Shown piece by piece: positions 6,675 through 13,683 of a DNA stretch of 64,000 bases. A program made the translations under genes and the position numbers. Every line of letters begins with the position of its first letter. Position 1 is the stretch's first letter. Where the stretch lies: assembly GCF_014352855.1 (NCBI RefSeq), contig NZ_CP060697.1, forward strand, positions 1,818,001 through 1,882,000. Reading direction: 5' to 3'. The stretch is from Sphingomonas sabuli. Lineage in GTDB: Bacteria > Pseudomonadota > Alphaproteobacteria > Sphingomonadales > Sphingomonadaceae. The notes below the pieces were generated by a model. It was given only the letters and a program-made list of their open reading frames with translations. It was not told the origin of the DNA and searched no databases.

Positions 6675-7577
6675 GTGGCTATTCAACCACCGCTTGAGCT
6701 CAAGGCCAGCACCGAACGGCCGGCCGGAACGGCCAGCGGCTATCCGATGCTGCTGGTGCTCGTCGGGGCGGCCGCATTGTTCGCCTACGGCTTCGCGCGG
6801 ACGGCCAACGATCAATGGGGGCTGTTGACGATCGCCATCTTCCTGATCGCGATTCTCGTGGCGACGTTCGTCGTCTGCGGCTTCTACATGCTGCAACCCA
6901 ACCAGTCGGCGGCGATCACATTGTTCGGCGATTACAAGGGCACCGACCGGTCGACCGGCCTGCGCTGGGTACTGCCGTGGATGATGCGCCCCAAGATCTC
7001 GACCCGGGTGCACAATTTCACGTCCGACCGGATCAAGGTCAACGACCTGCGCGGCAACCCGATCGAAATCGCCGCCAACGTCGTCTGGCGGGTCAGCGAC
7101 ACCGCGCAGGCGATGTTCGACGTCGCCGATTACAAGGACTTCATCGAAGTGCAGATCGAAAGCGCGGTCCGCACGATCGGTTCGAAATATCCCTACGACG
7201 ATATCGAGGACCAGGAAGTGACCCTGCGCGGCGATGCGGAAGTGATCAACGCGGAACTTGAAACGGAGCTTCAGGAACGGGTCGCCCGCGCCGGCATCTC
7301 GATCGACGAATGCCGCATCATGCACCTCGCCTATGCGCAGGAAATCGCGCAGGCGATGCTTCGCCGGCAACAGGCCGAAGCGGTCATCGCGGCGCGTGCG
7401 AAGCTGGTGCTCGGGGCGGTGTCGATGGTCGAAACCGCGCTTCAGCTCCTGTCCGAAAAGGATGTCGTCGACCTCGACGACGAACGCCGGGCGGCGATGG
7501 TTTCGAACCTGATGGTCGTGCTCTGCTCCGAACGCGACACGCAACCCGTCGTCAACGCCGGCACCCTCTACCAATAG
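6675..7577 (+). CDS. SPFH (band 7/stomatin) domain membrane protein
   Basis: A 300-aa membrane scaffold protein. Two membrane segments at about residues 23-41 and 49-71 are followed by an SPFH domain (FYMLQPNQSAAITLFGDYKG onwards) and a helical C-terminal half that would multimerise. Such proteins form membrane microdomains and often assist proteases or stress responses. The start is GTG with GGAGG at good distance. Downstream, within 10 bases, lie a ribbon-helix-helix gene and a small membrane protein gene, giving a three-gene operon. No NfeD-type protease partner is present. Confidence 0.9.
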   Translation: MAIQPPLELKASTERPAGTASGYPMLLVLVGAAALFAYGFARTANDQWGLLTIAIFLIAILVATFVVCGFYMLQPNQSAAITLFGDYKGTDRSTGLRWVLPWMMRPKISTRVHNFTSDRIKVNDLRGNPIEIAANVVWRVSDTAQAMFDVADYKDFIEVQIESAVRTIGSKYPYDDIEDQEVTLRGDAEVINAELETELQERVARAGISIDECRIMHLAYAQEIAQAMLRRQQAEAVIAARAKLVLGAVSMVETALQLLSEKDVVDLDDERRAAMVSNLMVVLCSERDTQPVVNAGTLYQ

Positions 7578-7586
7578 CGCGGACCG

Positions 7587-7787
7587 TTGGCGGACGATCG
7601 CAAGGCCTACCCGTTACGGGTCGACCCGGCCTTATGGTCGGCGGTGGAACGCTGCGCCGCCGCCGACCTGCGCAGCGTCAACGCCGAAGTCGAAATCCTT
7701 ATTCGCGAAGCGCTCGGCGCGCGCGGCGTGAAACTGGCGAAGCCGCAAGCGCGCAAGCGCGGGCGGCCGCCAAAGGCGGAGAGCTGA
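7587..7787 (+). CDS. Arc/ribbon-helix-helix small protein
   Basis: A 66-aa basic protein. KAYPLRVDPALWSAVERCAAA and the following SVNAEVEILIREAL helix look like an Arc/MetJ ribbon-helix-helix fold, with a strand (YPLRV) that would contact DNA and then two helices. The tail (ARKRGRPPKAES) resembles an AT-hook (GRP core) and would add DNA affinity. The start appears to be TTG, 9 bases after the SPFH stop. No toxin gene is adjacent, so I do not call it an antitoxin. It may regulate its own operon at the AT-rich region upstream of the SPFH gene. Confidence 0.68.
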   Translation: MADDRKAYPLRVDPALWSAVERCAAADLRSVNAEVEILIREALGARGVKLAKPQARKRGRPPKAES

Positions 7788-7788
7788 C

Positions 7789-8040
7789 ATGAACGACGGT
7801 CCCGAATGGTTCGCCCCGAAAGCCCTCGGCTTCGGCAGCGGCCGGCCGATAGCCTGGCAGGGCTGGGCGGTCCTTGCCGCCTATCTCGCGATCCTCGCCG
7901 GCCTTGCCCATGCCTATGCCGAACATCTTGCGATCTTCCTGCCGCTAACCGCCTTCGCGACGTTCCTGCTGCTGCTGATTGCGGCAAAGACCACCCGCGG
8001 CGGCTGGAAATGGCGCGGCTGGCCGCGCCGCCGCGATTAA
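7789..8040 (+). CDS. small two-helix membrane protein (83 aa)
   Basis: Unrecognised small protein with two hydrophobic segments (about residues 24-42 and 47-65) and a basic C-terminal tail ending in RRRD. It begins one base after the stop of the ribbon-helix-helix gene and is therefore very likely in the SPFH operon. A role with the SPFH microdomain is possible from position alone. Its stop overlaps by 4 bases the stop of the convergent SLOG/membrane gene. Confidence 0.65.
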   Translation: MNDGPEWFAPKALGFGSGRPIAWQGWAVLAAYLAILAGLAHAYAEHLAIFLPLTAFATFLLLLIAAKTTRGGWKWRGWPRRRD

Positions 8041-9881
8041 CCCACCGACAGGTCGTGCTGCCGGTTGAGCAGCGCCCAGTCGTCCAGGTCGGCGGTCATC
8101 AGCCGGGCAGCCTGTTCGACCAGGTCCGCGGTGCGGCTCAGGTCCGGGCCCTCGATCTCCAGCCGGTCGGCGACCTGCGCCAGGACGATCGCGGTCTGTT
8201 CCGACCGGACGGCGGTCCCGGCATAATCGCCCTGCACGCGAATGCCGAACAGCGCGGTGCCGATGGCCGGCAGGCCGGCCGTGACAATGGTGAACCACTT
8301 GGCATGGTCCAGCGCCCAATGATGGTCGATGAAAATCGCGGCCAGCAACCCGACCAGCGTCAACAGGGTCGTTGCGAAGACCAGCAGGCCGACCACTTCC
8401 AGCCGGTGGTCGAGCTGTTCGACCTGCCGCGCGGCGCGGTGATGATATTCGATCTGCGGCCACAATTCGTGCGCCGCCACCGCCTCGGCGAAGGCCGCGG
8501 ACTGGCTGGCCCGGATGCGGCCGTTGGGAAAGCCGACCGCGCGCCATACCCCGGCCGCATACCAGTCGACCCACCGCCGCGGCACCGGGTTCGCCTGCGT
8601 GCCGGGCGGGTCGGGCGCCGCAATGCCTAATAGCTTCAGGCTGCGCATCGGCCGCAACCGCTCCGCCAGCTGGCGATAATCCAGCCAGCGGCGATGCCAT
8701 TGCTGGCCGGTCCCGATCTTGGTGTTGATCAGGATCGACAGGATGACGACGATCTCCGTCGCCGCAAGATAGGGCTTGAGGTGCGGGAACGGCAGCGCCG
8801 CCAGCGCCAGCAGCACCGCAACCGCGGCCAGCACGAAATTGAACACGTGCCCGCTGCGGTGCGCCTGGGCGAAGTGGCTCGCCAGCGAATCGCTCCACGA
8901 ATACCATTGCTCCAGCGGCGCCAGCGGGTTGGACAGCCCGCTCGGGTCCCAGCAGCCGCTGCAATAGCGCTCCCAATCCTCGCGGATGTAGGCGGCCGAT
9001 ATATCGCCCCGCCACGCCTGCGCGCCGAACCGCGACACGCCGGTCGCGGCCAGCAGCAACGGATATTCCAGTCGCGCCTTCCACCGCCGCATCCGCTCGC
9101 CCTGGAACGTGTCGATGAACGCGCGTTCGTGGGCGTCGGGCGGCGGCGACAGCAGGGCGTTCAGCACTTGCGCGACATGGGCGGTGGTAAAGCTTCGCTC
9201 GACCGGCGTGTCGGTCCGCTGGGTCACGACCGACGGGTCGAATGCGCTCCAGCGCAGGCCGACCGTCTTGTCCGCCCCGACGGGCACATGGACCAGCGGC
9301 GTTCCGCGGGTCAGCGCCAGCTCGACCACTTCGCCGGTGCCGCCGCGGCCGCGCGGGGGATGCCCGTCCCACACCGCCAGCAACAGGTCGCAATGCGCGA
9401 CCGTGGCGCGGCCCGCCATGACGAACGCATCATGCTCGGCCTCAAGGCTGCCGGGCAGTTCCAGGACGCAGGTCGCCTTGCCCAGCAGATCGTCGAACCG
9501 CGCCAGCCCGCTTTCGTGCAAGGTGGTGCGGTAAATGCCGCGCTCGAACGGCAGGATGGCGTGCAGTTCGAAGCCAAGCTCCAGCGCTATTTCCGCGGCG
9601 ATCTGGTCGGCGCCGTCGGCCAGCGGGGACACGAACAGCAGCCGCGGGGCGCAATCGGCGAAATGCGCGGCCTCGCGCCGGTGCAGGTCCAGCGCGCATG
9701 CCTTCACCTCCGCCAGCACCGCTCGAATGCGCTCGACGATCGTCCCCACCTCGCCTTCGGGCAGGGCGGCGATGCGATGGCCGGTCACGCCGATCCCCAG
9801 CACGAACGGCAGGCGCGGCGGCAGCGCTCGCTTGGCAGCCGCCCAGTCGTTCGGCAGCACGGGCGGGGCGGCGACGTTCAA
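8037..9881 (-). CDS. SLOG-like Rossmann domain fused to SLATT-like membrane domain
   Basis: A 614-aa protein, third gene of the TIR operon. Residues 25-200 look like a SLOG/LOG-type nucleotide-binding Rossmann fold: GVTGHR at 31-36, PLADGADQIAAE at 86-97, and the glycine loop GRGGTGEVVE at 178-187, similar to the GGxGTxxE loop of LOG proteins. Two hydrophobic pairs follow (about 346-364 with 371-388, and 496-518 with 529-547). Right after the first pair comes WLDYRQLAE (399-407), a pattern typical of SLATT/DUF4231 membrane domains. Known SLOG domains bind NAD-derived or nucleotide signals, and SLATT domains are predicted membrane-pore effectors. I infer a nucleotide-sensing membrane effector. 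The TTG start lies 7 bases after the previous stop; a GTG at 9860 is the alternative. Confidence 0.72.
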   Translation of the reverse strand: MNVAAPPVLPNDWAAAKRALPPRLPFVLGIGVTGHRIAALPEGEVGTIVERIRAVLAEVKACALDLHRREAAHFADCAPRLLFVSPLADGADQIAAEIALELGFELHAILPFERGIYRTTLHESGLARFDDLLGKATCVLELPGSLEAEHDAFVMAGRATVAHCDLLLAVWDGHPPRGRGGTGEVVELALTRGTPLVHVPVGADKTVGLRWSAFDPSVVTQRTDTPVERSFTTAHVAQVLNALLSPPPDAHERAFIDTFQGERMRRWKARLEYPLLLAATGVSRFGAQAWRGDISAAYIREDWERYCSGCWDPSGLSNPLAPLEQWYSWSDSLASHFAQAHRSGHVFNFVLAAVAVLLALAALPFPHLKPYLAATEIVVILSILINTKIGTGQQWHRRWLDYRQLAERLRPMRSLKLLGIAAPDPPGTQANPVPRRWVDWYAAGVWRAVGFPNGRIRASQSAAFAEAVAAHELWPQIEYHHRAARQVEQLDHRLEVVGLLVFATTLLTLVGLLAAIFIDHHWALDHAKWFTIVTAGLPAIGTALFGIRVQGDYAGTAVRSEQTAIVLAQVADRLEIEGPDLSRTADLVEQAARLMTADLDDWALLNRQHDLSVG

Positions 9882-9888
9882 ACGCGGC

Positions 9889-10272
9889 CTATTTGCTGGC
9901 CACGGTGTGAATGATGATCGGGTCGAACGTCGTTCCGTCGTCGAAATTGAGCCGGTAGTGAATCACGCTCTTGGCGTTGGGCGCCCGCGCCTCGACCTCC
10001 AACCGACGCTTATCGACCTGGGTCTGGCGCACATGGCTGTGGGCCTGCGCCTTGCGCGGCGGGCACTTGCCGGTCCGGGCGCAAAACGGATTGTCCAGAT
10101 CCCAATTGGCCGGCGCATTCTGGTCCAGTTCGAACACCAGGGTGAAGTCCTTGTCGTGGGGCAGGATCAGCGCCTCGTCGACCAGATAGTCGCTGTGGCT
10201 GGCAAGATCGCATTCGACCTCGTCATGGGGCCCCTTGGGCCCCGGCGTGACCTTCAACTGGATCGTCTCCAT
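9889..10272 (-). CDS. unrecognised beta-rich protein of the TIR operon (127 aa)
   Basis: I do not recognise this protein. It is acidic in its N-terminal half, with alternating hydrophobic residues that suggest a beta-sandwich (IQLKVTPG, FTLVFELDQNAP, VIHYRLNFDDG). Two cysteines lie close together in NPFCARTGKCPP. No signal peptide or membrane segment is seen. It sits between the TIR-TPR gene (17-base gap) and the SLOG-membrane gene (7-base gap), so it is part of the same transcript. It could be a sensor, an adaptor or an inhibitor of one of its partners. ATG start with a purine-rich site (GAAGAGG). Confidence 0.65.
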   Translation of the reverse strand: METIQLKVTPGPKGPHDEVECDLASHSDYLVDEALILPHDKDFTLVFELDQNAPANWDLDNPFCARTGKCPPRKAQAHSHVRQTQVDKRRLEVEARAPNAKSVIHYRLNFDDGTTFDPIIIHTVASK

Positions 10273-10289
10273 CGCCTCTTCTCCCCCTG

Positions 10290-12440
10290 TCAGCGCAGCG
10301 GCATCTTCGCCTTGTAACCCATCGCTGCCAACCGCGCATCGCGGCCGGCGGCTTCGCGCGCTTGCCCCAGCCGGTGCAGCAACGCGGCATGTTCGGCCAT
10401 CTCGACGGGCTTCTCGTCAACCTCTTTCGGCAATTGCCGAAGGCCTGCCTGCCACGCGGCCCGGGCGCCGGCGATGTCGCCCGACGTGGTCCGCGCGTCG
10501 CCCAGCAGGCGATGGGCCGTGGCCGCGGCATAGCGATTCTCGACCGGGTCGGTCGATCGCACCGACGCACCGGCCGCGATGGCGCGGTTGGCAAAGTCGG
10601 CGGCCTGGCCCGCATTGCCACCGGACAGCGCGGCCCGCGCCCGCACTTGCCAGCAATCCCGCAAATTGGCCCGCCACGTCTGGACGCTCGCCTCGGTTTG
10701 CAAAAGGCGCGCGGTGGTGGCGCAGCCGGCGGCGATATCGGCGGCGGCCGCGGCGCGGTCGCCGGCCGCCAGCTCGGCATTGGCAAGGTCCAGCTGGGCG
10801 CGCGCGCCCATATATTCCCACAACCGGTTTTCCGGTTCCCGCGACCGCAGCACCGCGCTGTGCTCGACCGCGCCGCGCAACGCGCCGATGCCGCTGGCGC
10901 TGTCGCCCAGCGACAGGTGCGACAGCCCAAGGTAGCGATTGGCCGACATCAGCTGGCGCCGGTACACCACGTCGCCGGTCCGCTGCAGCAACTGTTGAAG
11001 CTCGGCCACCACCCGGGCGCGCAGGGCCAGCGCCTCGGCCAGCTTCCCGCTCGACGCCAGCGCATCGGCCAGCCACGTTTCGGCCTCGGTCGCGGCGACC
11101 CGGAAACCGGTGTTGTCCGGATCGGCGGTGGACAAGGCGCGGATGGTGGCCAGCGCGCGCGTGAATTGGGTGGTCGCCTCGCCGAAGCGCCGCCGTTCGA
11201 ACAGCATCACGCCAAGGTTAAAGTCGGCGCTCTGCTCTTCCATCCGCCACTGCATGTTGCTGGGGTCGATGGCGACCATCCGGTCGGCCAGCCGCTTATA
11301 TTCGCGCATGCCGCCCTCGGCATCGGCCAGCCGGCCCTGCTGGCGCGCGATATCGGCCAGCCAGAAGACGTTCTGCGCGTGGTCGAACAAGCGCTGCGCG
11401 TCGCCGGGATCGCGCTCGACCGCCTCGCCGGTGCCGTCCAGCGCCTCCCGGTACAGCCGCCCCGCCGACGCCAGGTCGCCGCGCACGTACGCCACGTTGG
11501 CCATCAGGCTTAGCGCGCGCGACCGCTGCATCAGCCCGCTGTCCGACAGCTGCGACGTGTCCTGCTTGCGGTAATATTGCAGTACCCGCGCCCCGACCCC
11601 GTCGAGTGCGTCCAGCTTGCCGATCGGTTCCAGCTTTTCCTTCAGGTCGCCAAGCATGAAGCCGACCAGGCTCTCCGCCTCGCGCCGCTCGTCGCGCGCC
11701 GCATCGCGGGCGCTGATCGCGGCGATGGCCAGCGTCCCGGCGACCAGCATTCCCGCAATCGACCCGGCGGCAATCCCGGCCAGCCGCCGCTGGCGGCGCA
11801 AATGGTCGCGCTGGACCAGATCGTCGAGCCCGACGCCAAGGATTCCCGCGACGATCTTCAGGAAACCGATGCGGCGCCCGCCATGGCCTTCGCGCAGGTC
11901 GGCGGCGAGCGGCTCGATCCTGCGCGCGGTCGGCTTGCCGCGCCGGTTGTACCGGGTAAGCAGCGCGGGCGGGAAACATTCCTCGCCCTCGCGCCCGGCG
12001 ATCTCGCTGGCCAGCGGCTCGCCCGCGATCACGGCGGCGATGACGCACCCGTCGGGGTGCAGCCGCTTGAACATGTCGACTTCGGCGTTGGTCCACTTGG
12101 ACCGGGCCGCCGCCGGCGAACAGAGCACGATTAGGCAGCGTGACGCCGCCAGCGCGGCGGTAATCTCGTCGGTCAGGTCGCTGCCCGCGGCCAGTTCGTG
12201 GGCGTCGCGGAAGATCGGCGTCAGGCGGTTCGGGATGACCCCGTTGCCGCCCAGCTTCCCGGCCAGGCCCGCGGGCACGCGAAAGCCCTCCAGCTCGCCG
12301 TGCAGCCAGTCGGCGATGGCGGCGTCCTCGTGGCTGTAGCTGAGGAAGGCGAAATAATGGTGCGCGGCGGGCGCGTGGCCGGCCTTCGCCGGCGCGGCGG
12401 AAGCGCCTTTCCCCTCAAATGGCCGGGTCCATTTGTTCAT
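10290..12440 (-). CDS. TIR domain - transmembrane - TPR repeat protein
   Basis: A 716-aa protein, first gene of a three-gene operon. Residues 28-150 form a TIR domain: [11 protein letters not shown] (box 1) and [11 protein letters not shown] with Glu120, which aligns with the catalytic glutamate of NAD-cleaving TIR domains such as SARM1. One membrane helix is at about 221-243. A conserved [19 protein letters not shown] segment follows, then helical TPR-type repeats from about 300 to the end. I infer an NAD-processing domain facing the cytoplasm, anchored in the membrane, with a large sensing or scaffold domain on the other side of the helix or folded back. The ATG at the divergent border with ispG has only a weak ribosome site. 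Operon partners suggest a signalling or defence role. Confidence 0.85.
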
Positions 12441-12537
12441 CGCTGCCCCGCGAATGTCGGGTCGAAGTCATAGCATCTTTGGCTATTTGCCGCGAATCCG
12501 CCCTCCCGGCTTTGCGGCTGGCCGGCGCAGGCCCTAT

Positions 12538-13683
12538 ATGCGCTCCATGTCTTCGATCCGCCCCTGGCGCGATATCGATCGCCGCGTGTCGCGGCAGATC
12601 ATGGTCGGCTCCGTCCCGGTGGGCGGGGACGCGCCGATCAGCGTCCAGACGATGACCAACACGCCGACCGAGGACGCGGCCGCGACGATCGCCCAGATCC
12701 GCCGCTGCGAAGAGGCCGGCGCGGACATCGTCCGGGTGTCCTGCCCGACCCAGGAAGCGACCGCCGCCCTGCGCGAAATCGTCCGCGAAGCGCGCGTGCC
12801 GATCGTCGCCGACATCCATTTCCACTACAAGCGCGCGCTCGAAGCCGCCGACGCCGGCGCCGCCTGCCTGCGCATCAACCCCGGCAATATCGGCTCGGCG
12901 GAACGGGTCCGCGAAGTCATCGCCGCGGCGCGTGCCAACGGCTGCGCGATCCGCATCGGCGTCAACGCCGGCAGCCTCGAAAAAGACCTGCTCGAAAAAT
13001 ATGGCGAGCCCTGTCCGGAAGCGCTGGTCGAAAGCGCGCTCGACCATATCCGCATTCTCGAGGACCATGGCTTCCAGGACTATAAGGTCGCGGTAAAGGC
13101 CAGCGACGTGTTCCTCGCCGTCGCCGCCTACCAGCAACTGGCCGGCGCGGTCGATTGCCCGCTGCACCTCGGCATCACCGAAGCCGGCGGCCTGATCGGC
13201 GGCACGGTGAAGTCGGCGCTGGGCCTCGGCAACCTGTTGTGGGCCGGCATCGGCGATACGATCCGCGTGTCCCTGTCCGCCGAACCGGAGGAAGAAGTCC
13301 GCGTCGGCTATGAAATCCTCAAGTCGCTGGGCATCCGCAGCCGCGGTGTCCGCGTCGTGTCCTGCCCCAGCTGCGCGCGCCAGGGCTTCGACGTCATCCG
13401 CACCGTCGAAAAGCTTGAGGAGCGGCTGCAGCATATCAAAACGCCGATGTCGCTCAGCGTGCTCGGCTGCGTCGTCAACGGTCCCGGCGAGGCCCGCGAA
13501 ACCGATATCGGCATCACTGGCGGCGGGCAGGGCAAGCATATGGTCTATCTGTCGGGCGTGACCGACCACCACGTGCAGGACGCCGACATGATCGACCACA
13601 TCGTCCGTCTGGTCGAAGCCAAGGCCGCCGAGATCGAGGCCGCCGCCGCAACTCTCGAACCGGCGCTGGACGCCGCCGAGTGA
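12538..13683 (+). CDS. ispG: 4-hydroxy-3-methylbut-2-en-1-yl diphosphate synthase (flavodoxin)
   Basis: Penultimate enzyme of the MEP isoprenoid pathway, converting MEcPP to HMBPP with a [4Fe-4S] cluster. The 381-aa protein shows the TIM-barrel start ([19 protein letters not shown]) and the cluster cysteines in [10 protein letters not shown] and [23 protein letters not shown] near the end is also typical. The ATG at 12538 has AGG six bases upstream; an ATG three codons later (12547) is possible. An overlapping small gene follows. Confidence 0.96.

Follow-up and report, generated by a model that had tools for sequence, protein, structure and literature searches.

In Thoeris, a nucleotide signal passes from a TIR protein, ThsB, to the SLOG domain of the SIR2-SLOG protein ThsA (PMC7272460 and PMC11204291, in the sections available). 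Additionally, the Aravind group predicted neighbourhoods in which TIR genes lie beside two-transmembrane (2TM) SLATT genes, in phages and in GTPase-centred systems, and proposed SLATT as a membrane effector gated by ADP-ribose (ADPr) derivatives (PMC9503650 and PMC7159879, also from their available sections). Here, we describe a three-gene operon in a 64,000-nucleotide stretch of Sphingomonas sabuli DNA (the window; contig NZ_CP060697.1, 1,818,001 to 1,882,000, with positions counted from its first nucleotide). The genome is one contig of 2.5 Mb, and several of the closest named relatives belong to Sphingomonas and Sphingomicrobium. The three genes probably constitute an undescribed signalling system, perhaps an antiviral one, and are encoded by adjoining minus-strand open reading frames (ORFs):

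10290..12440, minus strand: TIR-TM-TPR protein of 716 amino acids (aa), with a Pfam TIR domain (residues 32-138) containing Glu120, one transmembrane (TM) segment at about residues 224-242, and then a TPR array.
9889..10272, minus strand: DP-beta protein (MID) of 127 aa, a predicted beta-sandwich with a conserved Asp117-Pro118 just ahead of the final strand.
8037..9881, minus strand: SLOG-SLATT-SLATT protein of 614 aa, with a Rossmann-like SLOG domain (about residues 24-245) and hydrophobic segments at residues 346-364, 372-390, 500-518 and 529-547.

The operon resembles Thoeris in that its TIR passes the cut-off of the ThsB_TIR family (PF08937, 25.9 versus 21.2 bits). However, this TIR is membrane-bound and carries TPRs, an extra DP-beta gene is present, and the putative effector is a tandem SLATT, replaced in relatives by a TPR-S protein. 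Thoeris effectors are of the SIR2-SLOG or TM-Macro kind, and Pfam and NCBIfam detect neither SIR2 nor Macro in the window protein. A SLATT effector beside a TIR, with its proposed ADPr-derivative gating, is shared with the Aravind-group systems; compared with what the available sections of those papers describe, the operon differs in its SLOG domain fused to two SLATT units, its TM-TPR type of TIR, and its middle gene. PADLOC-DB 2.0.0 returned no full match to the operon and no Thoeris match. Within it, the 127-aa and 614-aa proteins gave no match, and the 716-aa protein gave two partial ones (2.1e-6 and 2e-5) spanning about 50 residues. No NCBIfam equivalog exceeded its cut-off for the operon proteins, and the three-part set was not named in the titles and abstract openings covered by the literature search, most subscription papers lying outside its coverage. 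The statement in the initial annotation that no described system has this set thus holds for the database and these titles and abstract openings, but TIR with SLATT neighbourhoods and an ADPr-gated SLATT had already been proposed in print, as the available parts of those papers show.

We give a probability of roughly one half to the reading that the operon is a three-part TIR-SLOG signalling module, leading from a membrane receptor to a SLATT effector. In this module, the TIR-TM-TPR protein would be an inner-membrane receptor with its TIR domain in the cytoplasm and its TPRs outside. The TPRs, together with the fast-changing DP-beta protein, would sense a trigger, most likely damage to the envelope or infection by a phage. 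The activated TIR would convert NAD+ into an ADP-ribose-type nucleotide, to be bound by the SLOG domain, and the tandem SLATT helices would then alter membrane permeability and stop the cell. A defence role is plausible.

The individual proteins had been read earlier as a membrane-anchored TIR with TPR repeats, an unrecognised beta-rich protein and a SLOG-like domain fused to SLATT-like helices, in genes spaced only 17 and 7 bp apart, and our searches agree with this description. The 17-bp gap separates the 716-aa and 127-aa ORFs; the 7-bp gap between the 127-aa and 614-aa ORFs is uncertain, as is the start of the latter, because its start codon is TTG and its database counterpart (P0001) has 607 aa. 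The 716-aa protein matches PF13676 TIR_2 (8e-12) and, just above the cut-off of 27 bits, PF07719 TPR_2 (28 bits), with a single predicted TM segment. Glu120 is invariant in all 30 aligned relatives of a hand-chosen set. In 29 of these 30 proteins, Lys and Arg are more frequent in the 20 residues N-terminal of the TM segment than in the 20 C-terminal of it (equal in one), with means of 5.2 and 3.2. Under the positive-inside rule, the positively charged flank of a TM segment is cytoplasmic, and we therefore lean, short of proof, towards a predicted topology that places the TIR in the cytoplasm and the TPRs on the opposite side of the membrane.

The 614-aa protein matches the 2TM SLATT domain (NCBIfam SLATT_1, 1.3e-12, 47.8 bits against a cut-off of 41; Pfam DUF4231, 8.4e-8), and it contains the four hydrophobic segments. 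Its N-terminal domain received no name from Pfam, PADLOC or NCBIfam. Since the SLOG profile (A2) retrieved nothing below E 0.27 from PDB sequences, structure comparison was used, and the predicted structure identified the domain as SLOG, with the Rossmann-like fold and GGT loop of that superfamily. The WDG and GGT motifs are present in 54 of 54 aligned SLOG rows. Alignment A4 comprises 37 of the 119 non-self SLOG homologues listed, together with loci, and the SLOG profile omits L100 and L116, both of which match the TPR-S profile. The TRPM2 channel is another of the closest known systems, but the operon protein has SLATT helices and not a TRP pore.

The co-occurrence of the genes was surveyed with a TIR alignment scanned against contigs, using the best 80 of at least 560 confirmed loci, from sphingomonads, Caulobacter, Maricaulis, Lysobacter, Dokdonella, Rhodanobacter and others. 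Seven of the 80 duplicate the first set, which leaves 73 non-duplicate loci, and two pairs are near-identical. A held-out hidden Markov model (HMM) of MID, built from the window, database proteins and the first set only, placed a MID directly downstream of the TIR on the same strand in 44 of 73 non-duplicate loci. This model gave 52 matches among 5794 ORFs, 47 of them directly downstream of a TIR and the other five also beside one: a second copy, an upstream gene, and three genes that lie immediately downstream but are encoded on the other strand. The iterated model, which is not independent, found MID in 55 of the 78 loci whose downstream sequence covers at least 700 bp. Where this sequence reaches at least 2.6 kb (66 loci, counting each near-identical pair once), MID was in place in 48, and the third gene was SLOG-SLATT in 15 and TPR-S in 23. 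MID is therefore a more constant partner of the TIR than SLOG-SLATT is, a point that the initial annotation overlooked, as it did what the middle protein resembles. The joint recurrence of the genes, which it had named as support, was seen in several alpha- and gammaproteobacterial genera, the 15 SLOG-SLATT triplets including Sphingomonas, Aurantiacibacter, Lysobacter, Dokdonella and Rhodanobacter.

All 11 TPR-S proteins scanned match PF20308 at E of 0.01 or lower, nine of them above the cut-off, and five also match Guanylate_cyc. Eight of the 11 are recognised by the SLOG profile, with E values from 9e-9 to 9e-12 in a search set of 11, so SLOG is the part mostly common to both third-gene types. 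An exchange of effector with SLOG and TIR retained is what would be expected if SLOG receives the nucleotide signal of the TIR, as in Thoeris. In these relatives, the TPR-S protein would replace the SLATT effector; most such proteins match SLOG, and roughly half of the scanned ones have a class III cyclase. Loci in which a cyclase-bearing TPR-S is the third gene of the TIR operon (L150, L157, L160, L165 and L188) possibly encode a relay from an NAD signal to a cyclic nucleotide. Separately, a TIR-MID pair lies just upstream of a gene that by eye is GMP-synthase-like in L110, L112, L113, L115, L117, L118, L152, L153, L156 and L159, which is another recurrent TIR-MID site, including in Qipengyuania.

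Of 296 genomes across the order, 63 yielded a SLOG protein and 86 a TIR protein among the candidates scored (at most three TIR and four SLOG per genome in most genomes, so that further pairs may be missed). Both were present in 34 genomes, and TIR-SLOG linkage is more than chance, with a scored pair within 5 kb in 14 of them. Furthermore, 40 SLOG loci (L061-L100) were mapped, covering 40 of the 63 SLOG-positive genomes. A TIR gene lies within about 4 kb in 30 of these, of the TIR-TM-TPR type in 13 and of another TIR-TPR family in 17, and ten have neither; L100 encodes a TPR-S-type protein. In L077, L081-L083 and L088, from one other genus and with the same neighbours, a SLOG-SLATT gene comes immediately after a TIR-TPR gene of a different type, which looks like a second TIR-SLOG pairing; beside them is a further gene of about 1017-1075 aa with an FAD-binding-like N-terminal motif by eye. 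A small ion-channel-like gene was observed near SLOG in 12 of the 40 loci (including L091:10210-10668 and L080:8070-8606), convergent with the SLOG-SLATT gene in eight of the 12; the one copy scanned, in L091, matches PF07885 (4.5e-12), and the copies read contain a TTLGIGD motif.

The middle protein has no match in Pfam, PADLOC or NCBIfam, and its predicted model is an all-beta sandwich. Comparison of this model with known structures matched Shewanella SO1698, in fold and in an Asp-Pro near the C-terminus followed by a short tail, and the structure matches supplied the mutant titles and chain ends for SO1698. We take SO1698 to be a DUF1888 member with self-cleavage chemistry at its Asp-Pro, in which Lys98 is presumably the isopeptide partner; text searches and a look-up for SO1698/DUF1888 found no paper. 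Across 65 MIDs of high divergence, the Asp-Pro is present in 63 (all but L145 and L184), and it is the only invariant pair in the hand-chosen alignment A3 (46 of 46). This alignment holds the window protein, four proteins from the database and 41 MIDs of the 65, L145 and L184 being among the 24 omitted. This retention of the Asp-Pro suggests that MID may process itself. Alternatively, the DP-beta protein could serve solely as a structural adaptor with an uncut Asp-Pro, an explanation that we place a little short of even odds. The two MIDs that lack the pair and the variation at aligned positions adjoining the putative cut site favour the adaptor. So does the column aligned with Lys98, which, in a sequence alignment only, is Lys in 2 of 46 MIDs and His in the window protein. 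At Asp37 and Ser114, residues that SO1698 needs for cutting, the alignment register is uncertain. The folds of PixA and MakC/MakD match nearly as well, and we know of no self-cleavage in them. A purely structural role is harder to square with a near-universal Asp-Pro ahead of a tail like that of SO1698. MID has 8% identity to SO1698, and it differs from SO1698, PixA and MakC/MakD in being encoded beside a TIR receptor.

In nine hand-chosen sphingomonad triplets, each with one MID and unbroken ORFs, mean identity (36 pairs) was 27% for MID and 51% and 54% for the other two proteins. Because of this low conservation and its position beside the receptor, a role of the DP-beta protein in recognition or arming is suggested. 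When viral proteins were searched for the MID fold, most of the matches were Ig-like or had no name (best E 9e-4). A class-level MID search found 1 of 289 genomes and missed the gene of the window itself; being insensitive, it was not used.

In the genus, the operon occupies a variable site at a conserved core-genome locus, whose boundaries lie outside the system:

12433..13683, plus strand: ispG (GcpE), which bounds the conserved insertion site on one side.
6675..7577, plus strand: SPFH/Band 7 gene, the other boundary.

Of 41 genomes with ispG, 20 were sampled, mainly on long contigs, including four already known from the order-level scan. Six carry a TIR, one or two MIDs and a SLOG gene (two of them with split ORFs), one (G298) carries TIR and MID without SLOG, 13 carry none, and none has SLOG alone; in G261, one of the 13, no other anchor gene was found within 12 kb. 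The triplet is also present in G000, G120 and G237, outside this sample. The TIR ORFs are split in L233 and L236, and SLOG also in L233, representing decayed copies or assembly errors. An S1/P1 nuclease gene occurs in the same variable site (L062:5375-6259, PF02265 1e-46, and others). After the SPFH gene, positions 7579-8041 of the window contain two small ORFs, by eye a ribbon-helix-helix-like and a small membrane protein, which recur with the SPFH gene in several loci of the genus.

Several results weigh against the three-part module. Neither third-gene type is in place in 28 of the 66 surveyed loci (before near-identical loci were removed, one lay elsewhere in 6 of 29 such loci), and MID is not in place in 18. 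Three of the 11 TPR-S proteins do not match the SLOG profile, and the profile used to count TPR-S was built from 11 of the loci then counted. No scored pair lies within 5 kb in 20 of the 34 genomes with both genes, and the 14 linked genomes are not independent, since ten belong to the genus of the window and seven of these share one site. A placement near other defence genes, named as support in the initial annotation, was not borne out: none of ten selected flanking ORFs of the window matches PADLOC, the site is a core-genome one, and a defence island is unsupported for the window flanks. Among viral contigs, none of five pattern matches encodes a TIR relative, and plasmid copies are few (3 and 5 of 72,556 plasmid records); the operon therefore has no mobile-island signature, and a mobile element is likewise unsupported. 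SLOG matches on viral contigs numbered 28, of which 27 fall within query residues 4-224, and contig L201 encodes a near full-length SLOG-SLATT relative (query residues 32-607, 30% identity).

These flanks and scarce mobile copies, together with the fixed chromosomal position beside ispG and the SPFH gene among core-gene neighbours, would suit housekeeping envelope-stress signalling in place of defence. Periplasmic TPRs and DP-beta would then monitor the envelope, and TIR-SLOG would tune the membrane potential or the output of the cyclase, leaving the cell alive. The cyclase in five of the 11 TPR-S proteins agrees with this, as does a hint of MID export (a hydrophobic segment opens 5 of 65 MIDs, and a crude lipobox pattern occurs in 7 of 65). 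We consider it somewhat unlikely, as the variable presence of the operon at one site in related genomes (missing from 13 of 20) and the far lower conservation of MID look more like conflict. That DP-beta and the TIR receptor form a real pair to which the SLOG gene is linked by happenstance would fit G298, the stretches of L101-L103, L110, L112-L115, L117 and L118, which gave no SLOG match, and the 20 of 66 loci with MID and neither third-gene type in place, but it is improbable, because one of two mostly SLOG-sharing architectures takes the third-gene position in 38 of 66 loci and SLOG genes adjoin another TIR family elsewhere.

If the three-part module is correct, TIR-SLOG signalling would no longer be confined to the soluble pairs of Thoeris but would include a membrane receptor whose SLOG effectors can be exchanged. 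It would also connect TIR signalling, for the first time within the scope of our literature search, with a fold in which the known protein undergoes cleavage at this same Asp-Pro. A bolder reading, which we hold to be quite unlikely, is that the operon represents an undescribed class of Toll-like receptor systems in bacteria, in which a transmembrane TIR with an extracytoplasmic TPR sensor would be armed by a hypervariable, self-cleaving Asp-Pro beta-sandwich and coupled to swappable SLOG effectors, either a tandem SLATT pore or a nucleotidyl cyclase. In that case, bacteria could differ in the output to which a single NAD-derived signal is coupled.

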